A stretch of 64,000 nucleotides of DNA. Source: a virus. Below, in pieces: positions 13,232 through 23,483 of this stretch. Positions within the stretch are counted from its first letter, which is position 1. Every line of letters starts with the position of its first letter. The stretch is taken from positions 1 to 64,000 of IMG/VR virus record IMGVR_UViG_3300034198_024209. One strand, 5' to 3'. A program made the position numbers and the translations under genes. The notes beneath the pieces are model-generated. The model was not told the origin of the DNA, ran no database searches, and saw only the letters and a program-made list of their open reading frames with translations.

Positions 13232-13894
13232 ATGAAAAAAGAACAATTTATTTTAGCTACTGACTATAAAAGTAGTTTTTTCAGTGCGGTATTCTCTTTC
13301 GAGACAACTATGTCCCCCTTTGATACACTGGATAAGTACGATTTGCTACACGCATATATGGTTGGAGAAATTATAGGAAGATTTGACGACGTGCATGAAA
13401 GCGATTCGACAAGACCTTTTGTAGTTGAACAATTACTTAATCAAGTAAAAGATGTGGTCAAGGGTCTAAAATTTAAGTCCCAAAACAAAAAAATCGAAAA
13501 CTCTTCCGCCGAGATCAGAAAAATTTACCCAATCGAAACAGCTCAGATAGACAAAATGATTGACGATGACACGGGATTTGTTATCGGCTCTTTTTTTGTA
13601 CCAATGATTCTGTCTGATACGCTAAAAGAATTTGACGCTCTTGAAGCAAAAAAGAAGAAAAATCTTTGCCATGTAGATATACAAGGCCAATTTCTAAACG
13701 AGTCTATAAACGCTTTTTCATTGATGTTTGATATGTTTCTAGGCTTAATGCAGCGAAGGGAAGATAAAGACCCTCAAATCACTCAAGAGCTGATATCAAC
13801 AACGGCAAGTCTAATGAAAGAAACAATTGAACTTTCATTTGTATCTACGGGAGAATTTGACGCATATGCGGAACGCAAAAACAAAAAAGCTTAA
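13232..13894 (+). CDS. Hypothetical protein
   Basis: A 220-residue, largely helical soluble protein with no recognised motif. It opens a unit after the terminator; TACCTTTG at 13169-13176 upstream fits a Bacteroidota -7 element. The gene overlaps the AT-hook gene by 29 bases. Confidence 0.65.
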   Translation: MKKEQFILATDYKSSFFSAVFSFETTMSPFDTLDKYDLLHAYMVGEIIGRFDDVHESDSTRPFVVEQLLNQVKDVVKGLKFKSQNKKIENSSAEIRKIYPIETAQIDKMIDDDTGFVIGSFFVPMILSDTLKEFDALEAKKKKNLCHVDIQGQFLNESINAFSLMFDMFLGLMQRREDKDPQITQELISTTASLMKETIELSFVSTGEFDAYAERKNKKA

Positions 13895-14525
13895 AACAAA
13901 CAAAATAATTAAAAAAGAAGAAAAAAGAAAAAGAGGTAGGCCACCCAAAAACAAGGAAGCCCAAAAGGTCGTGCCAGTCATCGCCAAGAAAAAAAGAGGT
14001 AGACCACCAAGGTTGAATAAGGAGACAAAGACTAATACTCCACCAAAGAAAAGGGGTAGACCTCCTAAAAATGCAAGCAATCAAGAAAGCAAAACAAAAA
14101 AAGAACACGAAATAAAACAATCGGTTAAATATGAAAACGAGTTTGAAGCAAAATTGTTCATAAACCAAAAACCATCAAGTAAGCAAATAGATGAATACTC
14201 TAATTGGCTGATAAAATATAATGAAGCAGTCACACAAATAAACTTTGAAAACCAAATAAAACAAATAAACTCTCTCCAGAACATATTAAATAAAGTGGTA
14301 GATAGTTCTACCGCTAGTATTGTCATACCTCCCATTTTTGTAACAAAGGGGGATAAAATTACTTTTGTATTGTTTGAGCCATTTGATAGAGGGGCTGAAG
14401 TGATTATTAAATACAAAACGGGATTAGTGCCACCGCATTTGAGCTCGTCTGCAAAATATACAGCAGTGTGTAACAAAATCACTGAGTCTATTCAAAAATT
14501 TGTTCCTGTAGGTGTTTGTTGTTGA
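13866..14525 (+). CDS. AT-hook DNA-binding protein
   Basis: I place the start at 13866 (MRNAKTKKLKTN...) because the longer frame from 13827 extends further into the upstream gene. The first 75 residues carry three classic AT-hooks: KRGRPPKN, KRGRPPRL and KRGRPPKN, spaced by basic linkers. Each would insert into the minor groove of AT-rich DNA. A helical middle and a beta-rich C-terminal domain follow. In an AT-rich phage such a protein could organise DNA or regulate transcription. Confidence 0.75.
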   Translation: MRNAKTKKLKTNKIIKKEEKRKRGRPPKNKEAQKVVPVIAKKKRGRPPRLNKETKTNTPPKKRGRPPKNASNQESKTKKEHEIKQSVKYENEFEAKLFINQKPSSKQIDEYSNWLIKYNEAVTQINFENQIKQINSLQNILNKVVDSSTASIVIPPIFVTKGDKITFVLFEPFDRGAEVIIKYKTGLVPPHLSSSAKYTAVCNKITESIQKFVPVGVCC

Positions 14526-16974: not shown

Positions 16975-16996
16975 ATCTACATAGTAGAACGAAATG

Positions 16997-17022
16997 CGCT
17001 CCAAAATAATTGGAGCGTTTTT
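16997..17022 (+). terminator. Second terminator in tandem
   Basis: A perfect 8-bp stem (16997-17004/17010-17017) followed by TTTTT, 26 bases after the first terminator. Tandem terminators suggest that read-through into the next gene is strongly prevented. Confidence 0.8.
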
Positions 17023-17114: not shown

Positions 17115-17342
17115 ATGAAAATCAAAGTCACCTTCAGTGGATGCGAACATACCCCAGAATTGCCAACTGGATCTACTCTATCATGCATCAAGGGGAATAA
17201 AACGTTGGCATCCAGAATGGGATGGGACGAACAAGGATCTATTGCCTTTATCGTAAATGGAGTGTCCGTACCTGATCAAACCGTTCTCAACGATGGAGAC
17301 TGGATATCCGTTCAGCACAAGGCTCACGAAAAAGCTGCTTAA
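17115..17342 (+). CDS. Ubiquitin-like beta-grasp protein (ThiS/MoaD or PRTRC-C-like)
   Basis: A 75-residue protein with beta-grasp layout: an N-terminal strand pair (MKIKVTFSGCEHTPEL), a helix region, then FIVNGVSVPDQTVLNDGDWISV (about 45-66). The last part is the N-G-x-x-V...L-x-D-G-D pattern typical of ThiS, MoaD and bacterial ubiquitin-like proteins. The chain ends QHKAHEKAA without a terminal diglycine. It lies just upstream of E2-, E1- and JAB-like genes, so a role as the modifier of a conjugation system is inferred. It is flanked by terminators on both sides, suggesting separate and perhaps higher expression than the enzymes. A sulfur-carrier role is the main alternative. Confidence 0.7.
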   Translation: MKIKVTFSGCEHTPELPTGSTLSCIKGNKTLASRMGWDEQGSIAFIVNGVSVPDQTVLNDGDWISVQHKAHEKAA

Positions 17343-17463
17343 TATATAATACTTATATCTACATTTTTGTATAATTGTGTCCACACAGAAGTCTACAGAA
17401 TAGCAATTTAGTTTGTTATTCGTTTTGTGGGGTTAATTGTTCATTTGTTTAGTTAATATAATT

Positions 17464-17503
17464 AGCACTAGCCTCTTTTTGATGGGGCTAGTGCTTTTTT
17501 TTT
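17464..17503 (+). terminator. Terminator between the ubiquitin-like gene and the E2-like gene
   Basis: A perfect 10-bp stem (17464-17473/17486-17495) with a run of about nine T. The 120-base stretch before it, after the Ubl stop, is otherwise unexplained 3' untranslated sequence. Confidence 0.9.
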
Positions 17504-17540
17504 CTTCAGTTAAAAAACAAAAAAATAAAATAAAAATAAT

Positions 17541-18407
17541 ATGAAACCATTCTTTGGTGTAACAGAAGATGGAATGATAGTTAGATATGATCCACACGTT
17601 GTAATAAACCCAGACGAGATTCTGGCGAAAATGAACAACAGAGATTTTAGGACTATATTTAAGTATGATAGTTTTTTAATGCCAATACATAGTGCAAGCT
17701 ACATAAATAAACAGTATAAAAAAGTTGCATTTAATTTTTCGATTACCTCTAAAAACTCATGTATTTTTTGGAGTTTCTTGCCGGGACTGCCTTTTGATTC
17801 AGCCTTTAGGATATCCGAAGTGACTCCAGGAAAACTTGGATATACTCCATGTTATGAAAGAACTCATGGAGACAATGCTCCAAGTGATATTGTATCAGAA
17901 CGTTTGTGGTGGGATGTAGATAGTACAAACTGTGTCAATAGTGATTTTGAGCTGCGACCATTAATAGCGATAAACATAGATCACGCAAGTCAGCTGTCTT
18001 CAGTGTTTCTTGTGTTTAATATTTATAATAGAAAAGAAAAAATTACATTAGGTAATTTTTTGCCACCAATTACCAACATATTTAAAGATTGTCGTGTGTG
18101 TATGGGGCACACACACAACCCCTCTTTTGCTGATAAAGAGTTAAATGTGCACGATATTGTGCAGGGCGAGATTCAATGGTTCTTTGAAAGCAAGATGAAC
18201 GGTGATCTTGCACAGGACACCATTGACCGACAAGGAATATCAAATCAATTATTTAGATGGGACGAAAACAAAATGTGTTTGCCGTCGCCTAGACCTGTCC
18301 AGACCATAGTTAACTCTAGGGTCGGAAATTACTATATAGATGGGCTTCCACTTGATGATAAAAATGTTTGCGATCAGATTATGTCCTGCAAGATTTTTTA
18401 TATTTAA
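17541..18407 (+). CDS. E2-like protein, resembling PRTRC protein B (Prok-E2 family D)
   Basis: A 288-residue protein. The telling region is residues 169-220: TLGNFLPPITNIF, then KDCRVCMGHTHNPS with Cys184 and Cys187, then EIQWFFESKMNG. Prok-E2_D/PRTRC-B proteins have the same order: a N-V-x-x-D-G-x-x-C-x-G strand carrying the presumed catalytic Cys, then a W-x-x-x-F-F helix. Cys187 is the best candidate for carrying the modifier. N-terminal residues 1-160 are beta-rich and not recognised. It is followed eight bases later by a small gene and then an E1-like gene. The assignment is by pattern from memory, so a profile search is needed. Confidence 0.6.
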   Translation: MKPFFGVTEDGMIVRYDPHVVINPDEILAKMNNRDFRTIFKYDSFLMPIHSASYINKQYKKVAFNFSITSKNSCIFWSFLPGLPFDSAFRISEVTPGKLGYTPCYERTHGDNAPSDIVSERLWWDVDSTNCVNSDFELRPLIAINIDHASQLSSVFLVFNIYNRKEKITLGNFLPPITNIFKDCRVCMGHTHNPSFADKELNVHDIVQGEIQWFFESKMNGDLAQDTIDRQGISNQLFRWDENKMCLPSPRPVQTIVNSRVGNYYIDGLPLDDKNVCDQIMSCKIFYI

Positions 18408-18414
18408 TTAAAAA

Positions 18415-18756
18415 ATGAATTTATACCAACAATTACTAAGGGCACCTACGCTTAGTGTTCGCCCCACAGCTGTGCATGGAGATATGGAATCTAGAATTCT
18501 ATCCCTCAATCAAAGTTTATCTGTTTACAGAAAACTGTATGCTTGGTTTCCTGCACCTAGTGCAGTTCATGGCCAAGATGAGGAAATAGAACAAGTAACA
18601 ATTCCAGATGAAGCAACAAGGGATTTATTTTTTAGCCGGATCCTATCTGGACACTTAAAAAGTGAATCCCTTGAATTTTACAACCAGAACAAAAAAGTTG
18701 ATATAGCCGACACAACGGAAGAATTGTTAAATTCTTTGTTCAAAAAATTAGTGTAA
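18415..18756 (+). CDS. Small hypothetical protein between the E2- and E1-like genes
   Basis: 113 residues. Two short copies of a PTAVHG/PSAVHG-like motif occur near residues 17-22 and 48-53, and the C-terminal half is helical and acidic. No family is recognised. Its place between E2-like and E1-like genes suggests an accessory or substrate of the conjugation system, which is inference. Confidence 0.55.
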   Translation: MNLYQQLLRAPTLSVRPTAVHGDMESRILSLNQSLSVYRKLYAWFPAPSAVHGQDEEIEQVTIPDEATRDLFFSRILSGHLKSESLEFYNQNKKVDIADTTEELLNSLFKKLV

Positions 18757-18775
18757 CAAAAAAACAAATAAAAAT

Positions 18776-18805
18776 AGGGGGACTATTGATATAGTCCCCC
18801 TTTTT
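18776..18805 (+). terminator. Terminator before the E1-like gene
   Basis: A perfect 11-bp stem (18776-18786/18791-18801), loop TGAT, followed by TTTTT. It ends seven bases before the E1-like start, so that gene needs read-through or its own start. It may act as an attenuator that lowers E1 expression. Confidence 0.85.
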
Positions 18806-18811
18806 CATAAA

Positions 18812-19537
18812 ATGAAAAACTTCTACATAATTGGATGCGGTGGAGTATGTACTTACTTTTTGCCTGCATTTTTTAAAACAATAAATCATGATAAACGCTT
18901 TTCCGGCGCAACTACAACATTGATTGATGGGGATACCGTAGAGCAGAAAAATTTATTGAGACAAAACTTCTATCACCAAGATAGTGGCTCAAACTCAATT
19001 ATTGATGCCTATAAGTCTGAGGTCTTGGCAGAGCATTATTCCAGCCAATACCCAAATTTAATAATAGAATCTCAAGAAAACTACATTACTGATTCCTTAT
19101 TTGTTGAGGAAAAATCTTTTATATTTTGTTTTGTTGATAACCATCCCGCCAGGAAAGACGTTTTATCTGTAGTCGATATTTTTTCCTGCGATGCTATATT
19201 TGCAGCAAATTCCTCAATAAGTAGTCACGCTTATTATTATAATAGCAAAATGAAGGGCGGAAGTATGGATCCTAGAAATAGGTTCCCAGAAATATTGACA
19301 ATAGATACTGGAAGTCCTGTAAGGGCTGCTGGATGCGATACCGAAGTTAAGCTCAATGACGTCCCTCAAACAGCTATAGCAAACCAAATGGCCGCTACTC
19401 ATGCATTATTTATATGGAATTTCTGGGCAACAGAAAGCAAAAAAATGTCTAAAGAGGAGTCTTATGAAATTTGGCCAATAGAGTTTATGAACAACTCATG
19501 CAGATACACAACAATTGCAGTAGAAAACTTAAAATAA
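18812..19537 (+). CDS. E1/ThiF-like ubiquitin-activating family protein
   Basis: A 241-residue Rossmann-fold adenylating enzyme. FYIIGCGGVCTYFLP (4-18) is the glycine-rich nucleotide site. LIDGDTVEQKNLLRQNF (37-53) has the Asp-x-Asp, Asn and Arg-Gln of ThiF/MoeB/E1 proteins, with Lys68 downstream. FVDNHPARKDV (107-117) is the conserved Asp segment. Cys175 in AAGCDTEVKLND sits where PRTRC-type ThiF proteins carry a cysteine. The usual CxxC zinc pairs are missing. It would adenylate the C-terminus of the ubiquitin-like protein encoded upstream. Confidence 0.75.
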   Translation: MKNFYIIGCGGVCTYFLPAFFKTINHDKRFSGATTTLIDGDTVEQKNLLRQNFYHQDSGSNSIIDAYKSEVLAEHYSSQYPNLIIESQENYITDSLFVEEKSFIFCFVDNHPARKDVLSVVDIFSCDAIFAANSSISSHAYYYNSKMKGGSMDPRNRFPEILTIDTGSPVRAAGCDTEVKLNDVPQTAIANQMAATHALFIWNFWATESKKMSKEESYEIWPIEFMNNSCRYTTIAVENLK

Positions 19538-19540
19538 AAA

Positions 19541-21292
19541 ATGAGCACAGAAGAAACCACAATGAATGATTCATCCAAGTACGGACCATATGCTGGTTGC
19601 CAGATGTGGAAAAATCAATTGTATAATTCTACAATAAGTAATGTTTCTAGGCATAGAACCACAGATAGACATTCTATTTCTAATTACATGGATTATTCTG
19701 CTAGGCTAACAAAAACATTGTTGACTCCTATGGTGTATGGAGCAATTGGATTGCAGCATAGGCCTGAAAATCTATCAGATTCAAAGACCTGGTTGATGCC
19801 GGATTTCTTTGGCGATCCATTTCATCATCAAGTTCATCATATTTTTTATGATACATTGAAACCCTGTGGTTTTTATCACAATAAAGCTATAAACGCCTTG
19901 TGTAGATTGATAGTAAACTTATCGTTTGTTCGATATACTGTATTTTCTGAAACCAGGCAGATAAACAATAAAGCATTCCGGATTAAGAAAGGGCAATATA
20001 TAAGCGCGAGCACCCCAATAGAAGACAGAAATAGTAAGATTATCCATTCTGCAGTTGAAGCAAATAGTTGCAGACCCACACATTATTCAAGCAATTACTT
20101 TGAGTTTACTCATTTTGATTTGTCTGATATTTTTTTCTCATCTTATCTAATCTCAAATTCAGGTATTGGGTTGTTTATTCTGCCTAGTGGATCCGTGTTT
20201 TGGTTTAAGAAGAAGAATAAATGGGTTACATGTGTTTGCGAGTATGAAATGCCCAAAGCATTCCCAAGGGGCAACGTTAAAATCAATTTTAGGGAGATTG
20301 ATGAAGACGGAATTGCAAAAGATGAAATAATTTTTTGCTGTGTTCAGCGTGAACAATACTTGCATAAAACTATTGCAAAGATGATTAAAAACGACGAGAT
20401 TAGGATTGCCATAAGCAACATAAAATCAATTAATAATCCTGGAGCGTCAATCAGTTGTGGAATGCTTGCTTGCTCTATTAATGCGAATGCTATGTCGATG
20501 CTTATGAAAAATTTTCATTCATCTATTTTTGATCAATTAAAGATAAGGGCGCTTCAAAACACTAATATTAAAAAATTAAAAAATTTTGATGACTTAGTGG
20601 ATGCCATTGCAAAAAACAGGAGAAATCATCTCACCGCAATCCAGTATTCTGGCGAAACCATGTTGTTTGCTAGAAAGGAGGCTGTTAAAGCTTGCAATAA
20701 TAATACGCCATTATTCTGGGAACTTGGCGTAAAGATGGATTACATTACCAACGCTATACAAAAAGTTGTTAACGAACAAAATAGTTATTACTACAACTCA
20801 GATTTAGAAAGCTTTGGTATCAATCAAGAAATAAAACATTTGGTTGAACTTGATTATACATTCCCTAATTTATCCAGTAGCAAATTACAAAGATATATTC
20901 GCAATATGCAAAGTAGTAGTATAGCTATTGATATGAATAATGAGTCATGGTTAAGTTCAAACATGTATTCATATTTGAGAATCGATCCCAAGCATGTAAA
21001 AAATAGGACTACTCCTATTAATGTTAAAGTAAGCCTAGATGTTACTAAGACAGAAATCTGCAAATACAGTGTCGAGATGGATACATCTTATAATATACCT
21101 ACTCAAGTTAAAGAACTTGGAGAAAACGCTGTATCTAAATTTATAAAATATATTAGTACCGGTAAGGATAAGAAAAATTGGGACAAGGAAATTAAACAAA
21201 GCAAAGACTCACATAAAATAACCTCAAATAGTTTAAACAATGAGGAAAAAACGGAAGCAAAAATAAACAAAATAAAAGTATTACAAACATGA
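19541..21292 (+). CDS. Large hypothetical protein of the conjugation cassette
   Basis: A 583-residue soluble protein starting three bases after the E1-like stop and overlapping the JAB gene by ATGA, so it is tightly coupled to both. It has aromatic and His-rich parts near residues 85-110 (FFGDPFHHQVHHIFYD) and a beta-rich core, and the last 60 residues are Lys/Asp/Asn-rich and probably disordered. No known family is recognised. In comparable bacterial cassettes unknown large proteins accompany the E1/E2/JAB set, so this could be a substrate, adaptor or ligase-like factor. Confidence 0.6.
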   Translation: MSTEETTMNDSSKYGPYAGCQMWKNQLYNSTISNVSRHRTTDRHSISNYMDYSARLTKTLLTPMVYGAIGLQHRPENLSDSKTWLMPDFFGDPFHHQVHHIFYDTLKPCGFYHNKAINALCRLIVNLSFVRYTVFSETRQINNKAFRIKKGQYISASTPIEDRNSKIIHSAVEANSCRPTHYSSNYFEFTHFDLSDIFFSSYLISNSGIGLFILPSGSVFWFKKKNKWVTCVCEYEMPKAFPRGNVKINFREIDEDGIAKDEIIFCCVQREQYLHKTIAKMIKNDEIRIAISNIKSINNPGASISCGMLACSINANAMSMLMKNFHSSIFDQLKIRALQNTNIKKLKNFDDLVDAIAKNRRNHLTAIQYSGETMLFARKEAVKACNNNTPLFWELGVKMDYITNAIQKVVNEQNSYYYNSDLESFGINQEIKHLVELDYTFPNLSSSKLQRYIRNMQSSSIAIDMNNESWLSSNMYSYLRIDPKHVKNRTTPINVKVSLDVTKTEICKYSVEMDTSYNIPTQVKELGENAVSKFIKYISTGKDKKNWDKEIKQSKDSHKITSNSLNNEEKTEAKINKIKVLQT

Positions 21293-22488
21293 ATAAGTTA
21301 TACATACATAAGGGGATCCCCCTAATGGAAAAACAAGTAAACGACAAAGTAGCTGGTTTTTTTCCAGTAGAGTTTACTGAATTAAAAGAAGAACCAAAAG
21401 CTAAAGTTAATATTGGTAAAATCAGCCTTTCTCTTTGGAGGACAATTAACTTTTTCTTCAAGGCGGTAGCAATAAAAGAGAAATCAGAAGCACAAGTCCG
21501 CTTGTTTTATTCTGACGTAGACAGTCAATGGAAAGCTCATGCTTTTCCGCAAAAAGCAAATACTGGTATGACCACAAAAGAATTGTGCGATAATCCAGGT
21601 TTTCAGGGCCAGATGAACGAAATAATTGAGAACGGTAAGTACTATCAGTACGGTACTATTCACAGTCATGTTTATGCATCAGCATTTCAGTCTGGCGTAG
21701 ATAAAAATGACGAAGCAGGCTGTCCTGGAGTTCATATTACTATAGGAAAGTTGGACCAATCTAATATTGATATATCTCAAAGATTCACCGTAATTGTACC
21801 AGGGGTAATTTCTCAAGATGAACAAGGCAATGAGTTTGTTGTATCAAAAGCTAAGAAGTTTTTTATGCCAATTGATATGCAAAATTTTGTTCAGATTCCA
21901 GAGGATATTTATGGTTCAACAAAATCAGAGGAGTTGAGGAAAATTATATTTAATTTTGTTATATCAGAAAATTCTGAAGAGTTAGTGGATCATGAACTTG
22001 TAAAAAAATGGATGGAAAATAGGATTGAAGAAGAAGCTAAACCTGAAATAAAATATATTCTTCATAAGGATAAGGATGAATATGATCACTCCAGCTTCCA
22101 CTCAAAACAGTTGATGATGTTTGATTCATCAAATAAAGACTACAAAAAAGGTTCAAAAAAAAACAACAGATACAAAGTTCAAAACTGTATACCAAACTCT
22201 TCGACTTACAAGATTGGTGATAGACAAGATCTTGAAAGGTTGGTAAACAAAATTTGTTTACTGCACAAGATATCGCAAGCGGAATTATCCGAGATACTGC
22301 TCAGCAAACCCGAACCGGTTATGTTTGAAAAGTATATAAACCTATTTAATGACATAGATATAAATATTTTATCCATATATCAAATGTATGGATATTCTCT
22401 TGGCCTAGAAATACAAGACTGGGTACAAGAGAGAATGGCAAAAGCAACACAAGAACACAAAATATCGCAAATACTACAAGCACTATAA
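21289..22488 (+). CDS. JAB/JAMM metalloprotease-like protein (PRTRC-A-like)
   Basis: A 399-residue protein whose N-terminal domain carries GTIHSHVYASAFQSGVD (122-138): His125 and His127, then Ser135 and Asp138. This is the H-x-H...S-x-x-D zinc site of JAMM peptidases that remove or process ubiquitin-like proteins. The upstream catalytic Glu is not obvious. Residues 180-290 are unassigned, and the C-terminal 100 residues are helical (SQAELSEILLSKPEP...). In PRTRC and Bil cassettes a JAB protein accompanies E1, E2 and a ubiquitin-like protein, as here. It may trim the modifier, whose C-terminus lacks an exposed diglycine. Confidence 0.65.
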   Translation: MNKLYIHKGIPLMEKQVNDKVAGFFPVEFTELKEEPKAKVNIGKISLSLWRTINFFFKAVAIKEKSEAQVRLFYSDVDSQWKAHAFPQKANTGMTTKELCDNPGFQGQMNEIIENGKYYQYGTIHSHVYASAFQSGVDKNDEAGCPGVHITIGKLDQSNIDISQRFTVIVPGVISQDEQGNEFVVSKAKKFFMPIDMQNFVQIPEDIYGSTKSEELRKIIFNFVISENSEELVDHELVKKWMENRIEEEAKPEIKYILHKDKDEYDHSSFHSKQLMMFDSSNKDYKKGSKKNNRYKVQNCIPNSSTYKIGDRQDLERLVNKICLLHKISQAELSEILLSKPEPVMFEKYINLFNDIDINILSIYQMYGYSLGLEIQDWVQERMAKATQEHKISQILQAL

Positions 22489-23483
22489 TGAAAACAAATA
22501 TAAAACACTGGATTGTTGATCAAATCGTAGACTCCCTACTTAAGACAAAGTATGATAAAGTTATTTTATCTATGGAATCTATATGCAATAAAAAATTTAA
22601 GGATATTTTTTATTTGCTTGATGACAATGACATGAAACGCATTGTTAATGAGCTTGCGCTCAAAAAGATTTTGATTAATCAAGATCTATTGTGGGAGGAC
22701 ACAATATTAAATAGTGTATTTAATATTGGGATGTATTCCCCAGACGATATGTATATTCCGCCATCAGAATATAGGTCATTTAATATTGACTCTTCTAGCT
22801 CTATCGATGTTATTAGCTGCAGCCCAACACCACAAAACATTAATCAACAGGCAACAAACCTAGTTCAAACTGCATATACAGGGGATTTTGAGGTAGACAT
22901 TGCAAACCTTGCAAATAAATACCCACATGCCTTGTTGATTGGATGCAAGAGTGAAGCGGAATGTTTATATGCATCAATGCTTCCAGCTTGGCAAAAATTG
23001 CTAAATGTAAAATGCATCGATCCAAAGAAAGCTTTGGCTGATGCAATAAACGAATATTGGGCAGAAGAAGTGGGAGCAGGTTCCTGCGTTGACAAGGACC
23101 AAATACTAACAGAATTGTTTGATTCTCTTGGATATGATTATCCATATTCAGGGACTTCTGACGACTATGATGATGAAGAAGAAGATATATCCACTTATGA
23201 GAAAAATAAATACGACAATGACGATGAAGACGACGATGAAGACGACGATGAAAGGTGCGAAATTTACGATGGTGATACTACGTGGGTAAGTGGATACGTA
23301 GACATGGAAAATGTCATGACACATACTGACTCGGGGCTAATTGCATATGTTTTCTCCTATAAGAAAACCGAAGAATGCAATGTCGCTATAGATAAAGAGT
23401 GCTTCATAGTAAAAGTGCCTAAAGGTTGCAATTCTACTGGCATTGTTTTGTTTAATGACCCAATAACAAAACAAAGATTGTAA
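22488..23483 (+). CDS. Hypothetical protein with an acidic linker
   Basis: A 331-residue protein overlapping the JAB gene by one base. Residues 225-260 form a highly acidic run (DDYDDEEEDIS, DDEDDDEDDDER) separating an N-terminal mainly helical part from a small beta-rich C-terminal domain. No family is recognised. It is the last gene before a strong terminator, so it probably closes the conjugation operon. Confidence 0.6.
   Translation: MKTNIKHWIVDQIVDSLLKTKYDKVILSMESICNKKFKDIFYLLDDNDMKRIVNELALKKILINQDLLWEDTILNSVFNIGMYSPDDMYIPPSEYRSFNIDSSSSIDVISCSPTPQNINQQATNLVQTAYTGDFEVDIANLANKYPHALLIGCKSEAECLYASMLPAWQKLLNVKCIDPKKALADAINEYWAEEVGAGSCVDKDQILTELFDSLGYDYPYSGTSDDYDDEEEDISTYEKNKYDNDDEDDDEDDDERCEIYDGDTTWVSGYVDMENVMTHTDSGLIAYVFSYKKTEECNVAIDKECFIVKVPKGCNSTGIVLFNDPITKQRL

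Follow-up and report, generated by a model that had tools for sequence, protein, structure and literature searches.

The phage from which our window derives, and dozens of others, appear, to judge from their sequences, to encode a seemingly complete ubiquitin-related tagging machine, consisting of a tag, an activating enzyme, a conjugating enzyme and a tag-removing enzyme. The window, the whole 64,000-nucleotide stretch analysed here, is part of the 88,649-base IMG/VR virus record IMGVR_UViG_3300034198_024209, which may itself be a fragment. The original prediction that a ubiquitin-like protein (Ubl) and E2-, E1- and JAB-type proteins lie together at positions 17115-22488 was borne out, as was the presence of a small and a large protein among them, here called X and Y. 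These genes, and a further one (Z) behind them, are all located on the + strand:

16996-17018, + strand: intrinsic terminator upstream of the Ubl gene; a similar hairpin is found in L003
17115-17342, + strand: Ubl, 75 aa, putative modifier precursor (ThiS match, PDB profile match, AF2 model)
17464-17495, + strand: intrinsic terminator in the gap between Ubl and E2, with a 12-pair stem and a T run
17541-18407, + strand: E2-like protein, 288 aa, predicted catalytic Cys187 (codon 18099-18101)
18415-18756, + strand: X, 113 aa, small protein whose gene separates those for E2 and E1
18776-18801, + strand: intrinsic terminator-like hairpin in the gap between X and E1; L003 has one too
18812-19537, + strand: E1, ThiF-type adenylating enzyme, 241 aa, predicted catalytic Cys175 (codon 19334-19336)
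19541-21292, + strand: Y, 583 aa, an insert that parts E1 from JAB in the window clade
21289-22488, + strand: JAB/JAMM peptidase, 399 aa (E67, H125, H127, S135, D138)
22488-23483, + strand: Z, 331 aa, overlapping the JAB stop; relatives in L003/L012 only

From E2 onwards the genes are tightly spaced or overlapping, with a single terminator-like hairpin, the one in the X/E1 gap, and Z is a possible member of the cassette. The neighbouring genes that were recognised encode a DnaE-type polymerase, RecA, a metallophosphoesterase and ribonucleotide reductase, and the closest recognised tail genes start at about 46 kb, so that the cassette does not adjoin structural genes, as had been supposed, but replication genes. 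A protein with three KRGRPPK-type (AT-hook-like) repeats is encoded at 13827-14525 of the window, and is also found in L003. Overall, the evidence strongly supports a Ubl/E2/E1/JAB cassette encoded by a phage.

Proteins and terminators of the cassette

The window Ubl matches Pfam ThiS at E=0.0023, which is below the ThiS cutoff. When the Ubl family profile was compared with PDB sequences, the top matches were ubiquitin and polyubiquitin (tetra-ubiquitin, E=7e-4), and an AF2 model with a pLDDT of 86 matched SUMO and ubiquitin with a probability of 1.00 and a TM score of about 0.67. The protein is thus a predicted beta-grasp modifier by both profile and model. Its tail reads ...HEK73-A74, followed by one extra residue, Ala75, and has no GG; Lys73 is invariant in 34/34 aligned sequences. 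The 44 distinct Ubls comprise 28 with a terminal K-A, eight with a terminal K-G, and eight that continue past this point for 1-15 residues. The C-terminal glycine looked for in a modifier is therefore replaced by alanine in the window and in most of its relatives, and is present in some. A terminal alanine in place of glycine is unusual for E1 substrates. Since extensions beyond the K-A/K-G tail occur in 8/44 Ubls, and tandem Ubls ending in GTKG are found in other phages, a processing peptidase would be required, and the extensions of 1-15 residues could be trimmed by JAB.

The Ubl gene is isolated between the terminators at 16996-17018 and 17464-17495. A strict terminator, whose stem sequence differs among loci, is found 3′ of Ubl in 22/44 loci, compared with 4/440 shuffles, and none follows E2 or E1 (0/44 loci). 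Because the Ubl gene is terminated separately, the modifier could outnumber the enzymes, and we infer that it can be produced in excess over them.

The E2-like protein of the window matches Prok-E2_D (PF14460) at E=0.005 and 17.0 bits, against a cutoff of 25, and 6/34 relatives match the same family at E<0.01, the best of them at 3e-11. The putative active-site cysteine is conserved in 43/43 sequences, and the spacing of canonical (UBC) E2 active sites, an N followed eight residues on by C, is found in 33/34, compared with 3.7% of shuffles; the motif reads TNIFKDCRVC in the window and LPNIYDDGRLC in relatives. The E2 profile found no match among PDB sequences. Its identification as an E2 was made at the sequence level, because the structural model, of moderate confidence (pLDDT 71), returned no E2 among its Foldseek matches.

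E1 of the window matches ThiF at E=3e-9 and PRTRC_ThiF at E=2e-6; it carries the adenylation motifs, and its predicted catalytic cysteine is conserved in 63/63 sequences. JAB matches PRTRC_A at E=3e-4 and has an intact JAMM motif (E67 and HSHVYASAFQSGVD), as expected of a putative metalloprotease, the JAMM residues Glu67, His125, His127, Ser135 and Asp138 being conserved in 67/67 sequences. A five-sequence JAB profile had no match in PDB. One viral JAB reading frame, L216:7380-9965, encodes 862 aa, about twice the usual length.

The slot of X is occupied by an ORF, mostly of about 110 aa, in nearly all loci with the order Ubl-E2-E1-JAB; sequence similarity to X itself extends only to L003/L012 and L013, and elsewhere X is defined by position. 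Relatives of Y are likewise confined to L003/L012 and L013, and family searches with Y yielded no match. A helical motif common to Y and the proteins in the same slot of other loci was tested and rejected.

Related viral loci, gene context and phylogeny

Because the family matches of single proteins were each weak, we gathered relatives of the cassette proteins. A scan of viral contigs with a JAB alignment yielded 78 loci, and iterated profiles built from the cassette proteins yielded 77 loci for E1, 83 for JAB, 61-67 for E2 and 58 for Ubl. All four genes are present in 54 viral loci on about 50 contigs, some of which have more than one locus, and 48 of these 54 have the order Ubl-E2-E1-JAB on one strand. 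The association of the four genes in viral loci exceeds chance.

The portal gene of the window's record, compared with 50,697 phage records, found only Salmonella phage Arash and Vibrio phages D69, D148 and D181, and the D69 E2 used as a query matched exactly these four phages; the portals are only distantly related, with 22-24% identity. Among the portal-positive viral contigs searched, E1 and JAB are present in all nine that exceed 100 kb and absent from all four short fragments. Eight of the nine carry all four genes, the number of tandem Ubls ranging from one to five, and in these eight contigs the Ubls that end the frame in KG have the tail GTKG or GNKG; the ninth, L013, has a cassette of the window type, and both cassette types thus persist. 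PolyUbl genes were seen in phages at L215:3637-4743 (five tandem copies) and L005:6391-7182 (three). Two likely annotation errors were noticed in the cultured phages: in Arash (OQ632216.1) the Ubl is unannotated and lies in another frame than gp251c (Gp251 has been reported by mass spectrometry, with the frame not stated), and in D69 (OZ195729.1) the E1 gene is split or mis-started as VPHD69_0301/0302.

Cassettes are also found in phages without the window portal. In phages of about 40 kb, PolA, SSB and primase-like genes lie downstream of the cassette, while terminase is encoded on the other strand, and in another lineage it precedes RNA polymerase subunit genes. Overall, the cassette shares its strand with PolA in 44 loci, with SSB in 36 and with primase in 32, and is opposite to terminase in 17/17. 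In D69 it is located on the ribonucleotide-reductase strand, opposite to the PAAR/tail block, and in Arash it is likewise opposite to that block. JAB of the 40-kb clade had no match in cultured phages, and E1 compared with plasmids gave only partial or low-identity PRTRC/ThiF matches. Prophage origin, plasmid carry-over and assembly artefact were ruled out, as cassettes occur together with PolA and terminase in many independent contigs, and further contigs pair them with RNA polymerase genes.

A few of these loci have additional features. In L073, L074, L075, L084 and L086, a second ThiF-like gene lies between the cassette and the RNA polymerase beta-prime and beta genes, directly before the latter, and the E2-like ORFs exceed 850 aa. 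An RNA polymerase beta-like fragment of 483 aa (Rpb2 domain 2, E=5e-6) is encoded at L009:12007-13458 (record 82006-83457), is followed by an opposite-strand gene, and may represent a split beta subunit; split beta subunits are known in other phages with multisubunit RNA polymerase. In a gut cassette, a DnaN-like clamp ORF, recognised by eye, directly follows E1 (L007:1679-2761), with E2 further downstream, and may point to a link between PRTRC-like systems and replication clamps.

In a tree of E1 and JAB, one side comprises the window clade, the 40-kb phages and other viral cassettes (32 rows, all viral), and the other comprises bacterial PRTRC-type cassettes and the Arash lineage. The split of the viral side received a support of 1.0 in FastTree, but only 85/71 in IQ-TREE. 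A tree constrained to unite the window clade with the Arash lineage was rejected, with a log-likelihood lower by 142 and a p-AU of 7.7e-5, and phages with a related portal therefore carry two non-sister cassettes. We interpret this as the same function having been acquired twice, although one cassette may equally well have replaced the other. A JAB profile search of 396 genomes of one phylum revealed no cellular members of the virus-only clade, which was also checked by one genome scan seeded with a mixed E1 alignment; as far as scanned, the window cassette is placed by its sequence within a virus-only clade.

Proposed role and its alternatives

We consider it fairly probable that the cassette constitutes a virus-encoded ubiquitin-like conjugation cascade which operates at the replication stage and has a host protein or a replication or transcription protein as its target. 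A working cascade used during infection is the most likely reading of these genes. JAB would trim the Ubl precursor and expose Lys73-Ala74; E1 would adenylate the trimmed C terminus and capture it on Cys175; and the Ubl, possibly supplied in excess from its separately terminated gene, would move on to Cys187 of E2 and thence to target proteins, from which JAB could also take it off. The cassette would be expressed together with the phage replication genes: its contexts in the window, in the 40-kb phages, in the RNA-polymerase group and in D69 suggest expression at the replication stage, not in assembly. As to the target, our best guess is that the protein modified during infection belongs either to the host or to the replication or transcription machinery of the phage.

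The original prediction had also proposed modification of virion proteins during assembly, and a related possibility is that packaged enzymes act at the start of infection. In purified Arash particles, Gp246 (E1), Gp247 (JAB), Gp248 (E2) and Gp249 were detected (PMC10585845 Table 2), which suits a role in assembly or a packaged role at least as well as ours; however, the Arash particle set comprises 116 proteins, replication enzymes among them, and the authors of that study weigh carry-over of abundant enzymes (PMC10585845). Gene context speaks against this part of the prediction: the cassette lies outside the structural module in the window, the 40-kb phages and the RNA-polymerase group, and in D69 and Arash the PAAR/tail block is on the other strand. 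Since the cassettes are read with replication, ribonucleotide-reductase and RNA-polymerase genes, we do not favour modification of virion proteins, and regard it as unlikely. The cassette might instead be a Bil- or PRTRC-like weapon, that is, a system carried by the phage which spoils superinfecting phages or mobile elements; phages are known to carry defence genes, which counts in favour of such a role, and defence genes usually have a patchy distribution. Bil conjugation is indeed an antiphage defence (PMC11354881), but PADLOC defence models, those of Bil included, gave no match beyond weak E1 hits, and the cassette is not patchy, since all long contigs of one phage group have it and another group has it at a constant position, which makes a weapon distinctly unlikely.

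A decoy or antagonist of host ubiquitin-like defences such as Bil and type II CBASS, for example a JAB that strips host conjugates, would accord with the apparent suitability of phage JABs for removing conjugates; such action would not, however, require E1, E2 and Ubl all to be present with their active sites intact, and we hold it to be very improbable. The least probable alternative is that Ubl and E1 serve only in sulfur transfer of the thiamine or molybdopterin type, with no conjugation. While ThiS is the sole Pfam match of the window Ubl and E1 is of the ThiF type, the E2-like protein with its invariant cysteine (43/43) and a Ubl tail of K-A or K-G in place of GG argue against it, and no thiamine or molybdenum-cofactor gene was seen among the proteins scanned, which represent a partial annotation.

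If the preferred reading, a conjugation cascade used during infection, is extended to all these phages, it might be, and we put this forward tentatively, that unrelated phage lineages depend on Ubl conjugation of their own as a core function, with a terminal alanine replacing glycine in activation. Viruses of bacteria would in that case make general use of ubiquitin-like protein control, which would then not be confined to antiviral defence. Our searches of the open-licence literature uncovered no description of a phage E1-E2-JAB-Ubl cassette, nor does one appear in the text of a comparative survey covering 224 jumbo phages (PMC7824862). Cultured carriers are available in Salmonella phage Arash and Vibrio phages D69, D148 and D181, and what these cassettes do is therefore testable in laboratory hosts.

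Comparison with known conjugation systems

PRTRC is a plasmid cassette composed of a PRTRC_A JAB, a Prok-E2_D E2, a PRTRC_C Ubl, PRTRC_ThiF and a ParB-related protein. PRTRC systems are plasmid cargo, and type II CBASS is an antiphage defence with ubiquitin-like conjugation. The cassette had been assigned to the PRTRC or Bil type, and the resemblance to PRTRC is real, in that E1, JAB and E2 of the window are distant relatives of PRTRC proteins, and the Arash lineage has the bacterial order E2-JAB-E1 together with GTKG Ubl tails. However, the window proteins score below the curated cutoffs, with 27.3 bits vs 144.75 for PRTRC_ThiF (TIGR03736) and 20.4 vs 101.8 for PRTRC_A (TIGR03735); neither the PRTRC_C Ubl (TIGR03738) nor the ParB-related protein (TIGR03734) was matched in the 88.6-kb record, possibly a fragment; and the window differs in its gene order, Ubl-E2-X-E1-(Y)-JAB, in the K-A tail of its Ubl and in belonging to a clade separate from the bacterial cassettes. 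Bil systems similarly combine Ubl, E2, JAB and E1, and in them the C terminus of the Ubl is thought to be exposed by JAB (PMC11354881). However, BilA contains two Ubl domains, BilD pairs an inactive with an active adenylation domain, and BilB carries a CEHH motif (PMC11354881), whereas the window has a single Ubl domain and a single-domain E1 of 241 aa, and none of its proteins matched the PADLOC models of BilA, BilB, BilC and BilD. The cassette fits neither the PRTRC nor the Bil definition.

The passages on lambda/T1-type tail assembly in the field's founding survey of 2006 (PMC1779556) describe a phage Ubl (TAPI) adjoining a phage JAB (TAPK), which recalls the window cassette, although E1 and E2 do not figure there and the genes are part of the tail cluster. 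The bacterial Ubl/E1/E2/JAB operons of types 6a-6e of Iyer et al. 2006, one of them with polyUbl genes, are located in bacteria, ICEs and plasmids, and a phage E1/E2 cassette is not described in those passages (PMC1779556). Compared with such systems, hitherto known mainly as antiphage weapons or plasmid cargo, the cassettes described here are complete sets owned by the phages themselves.
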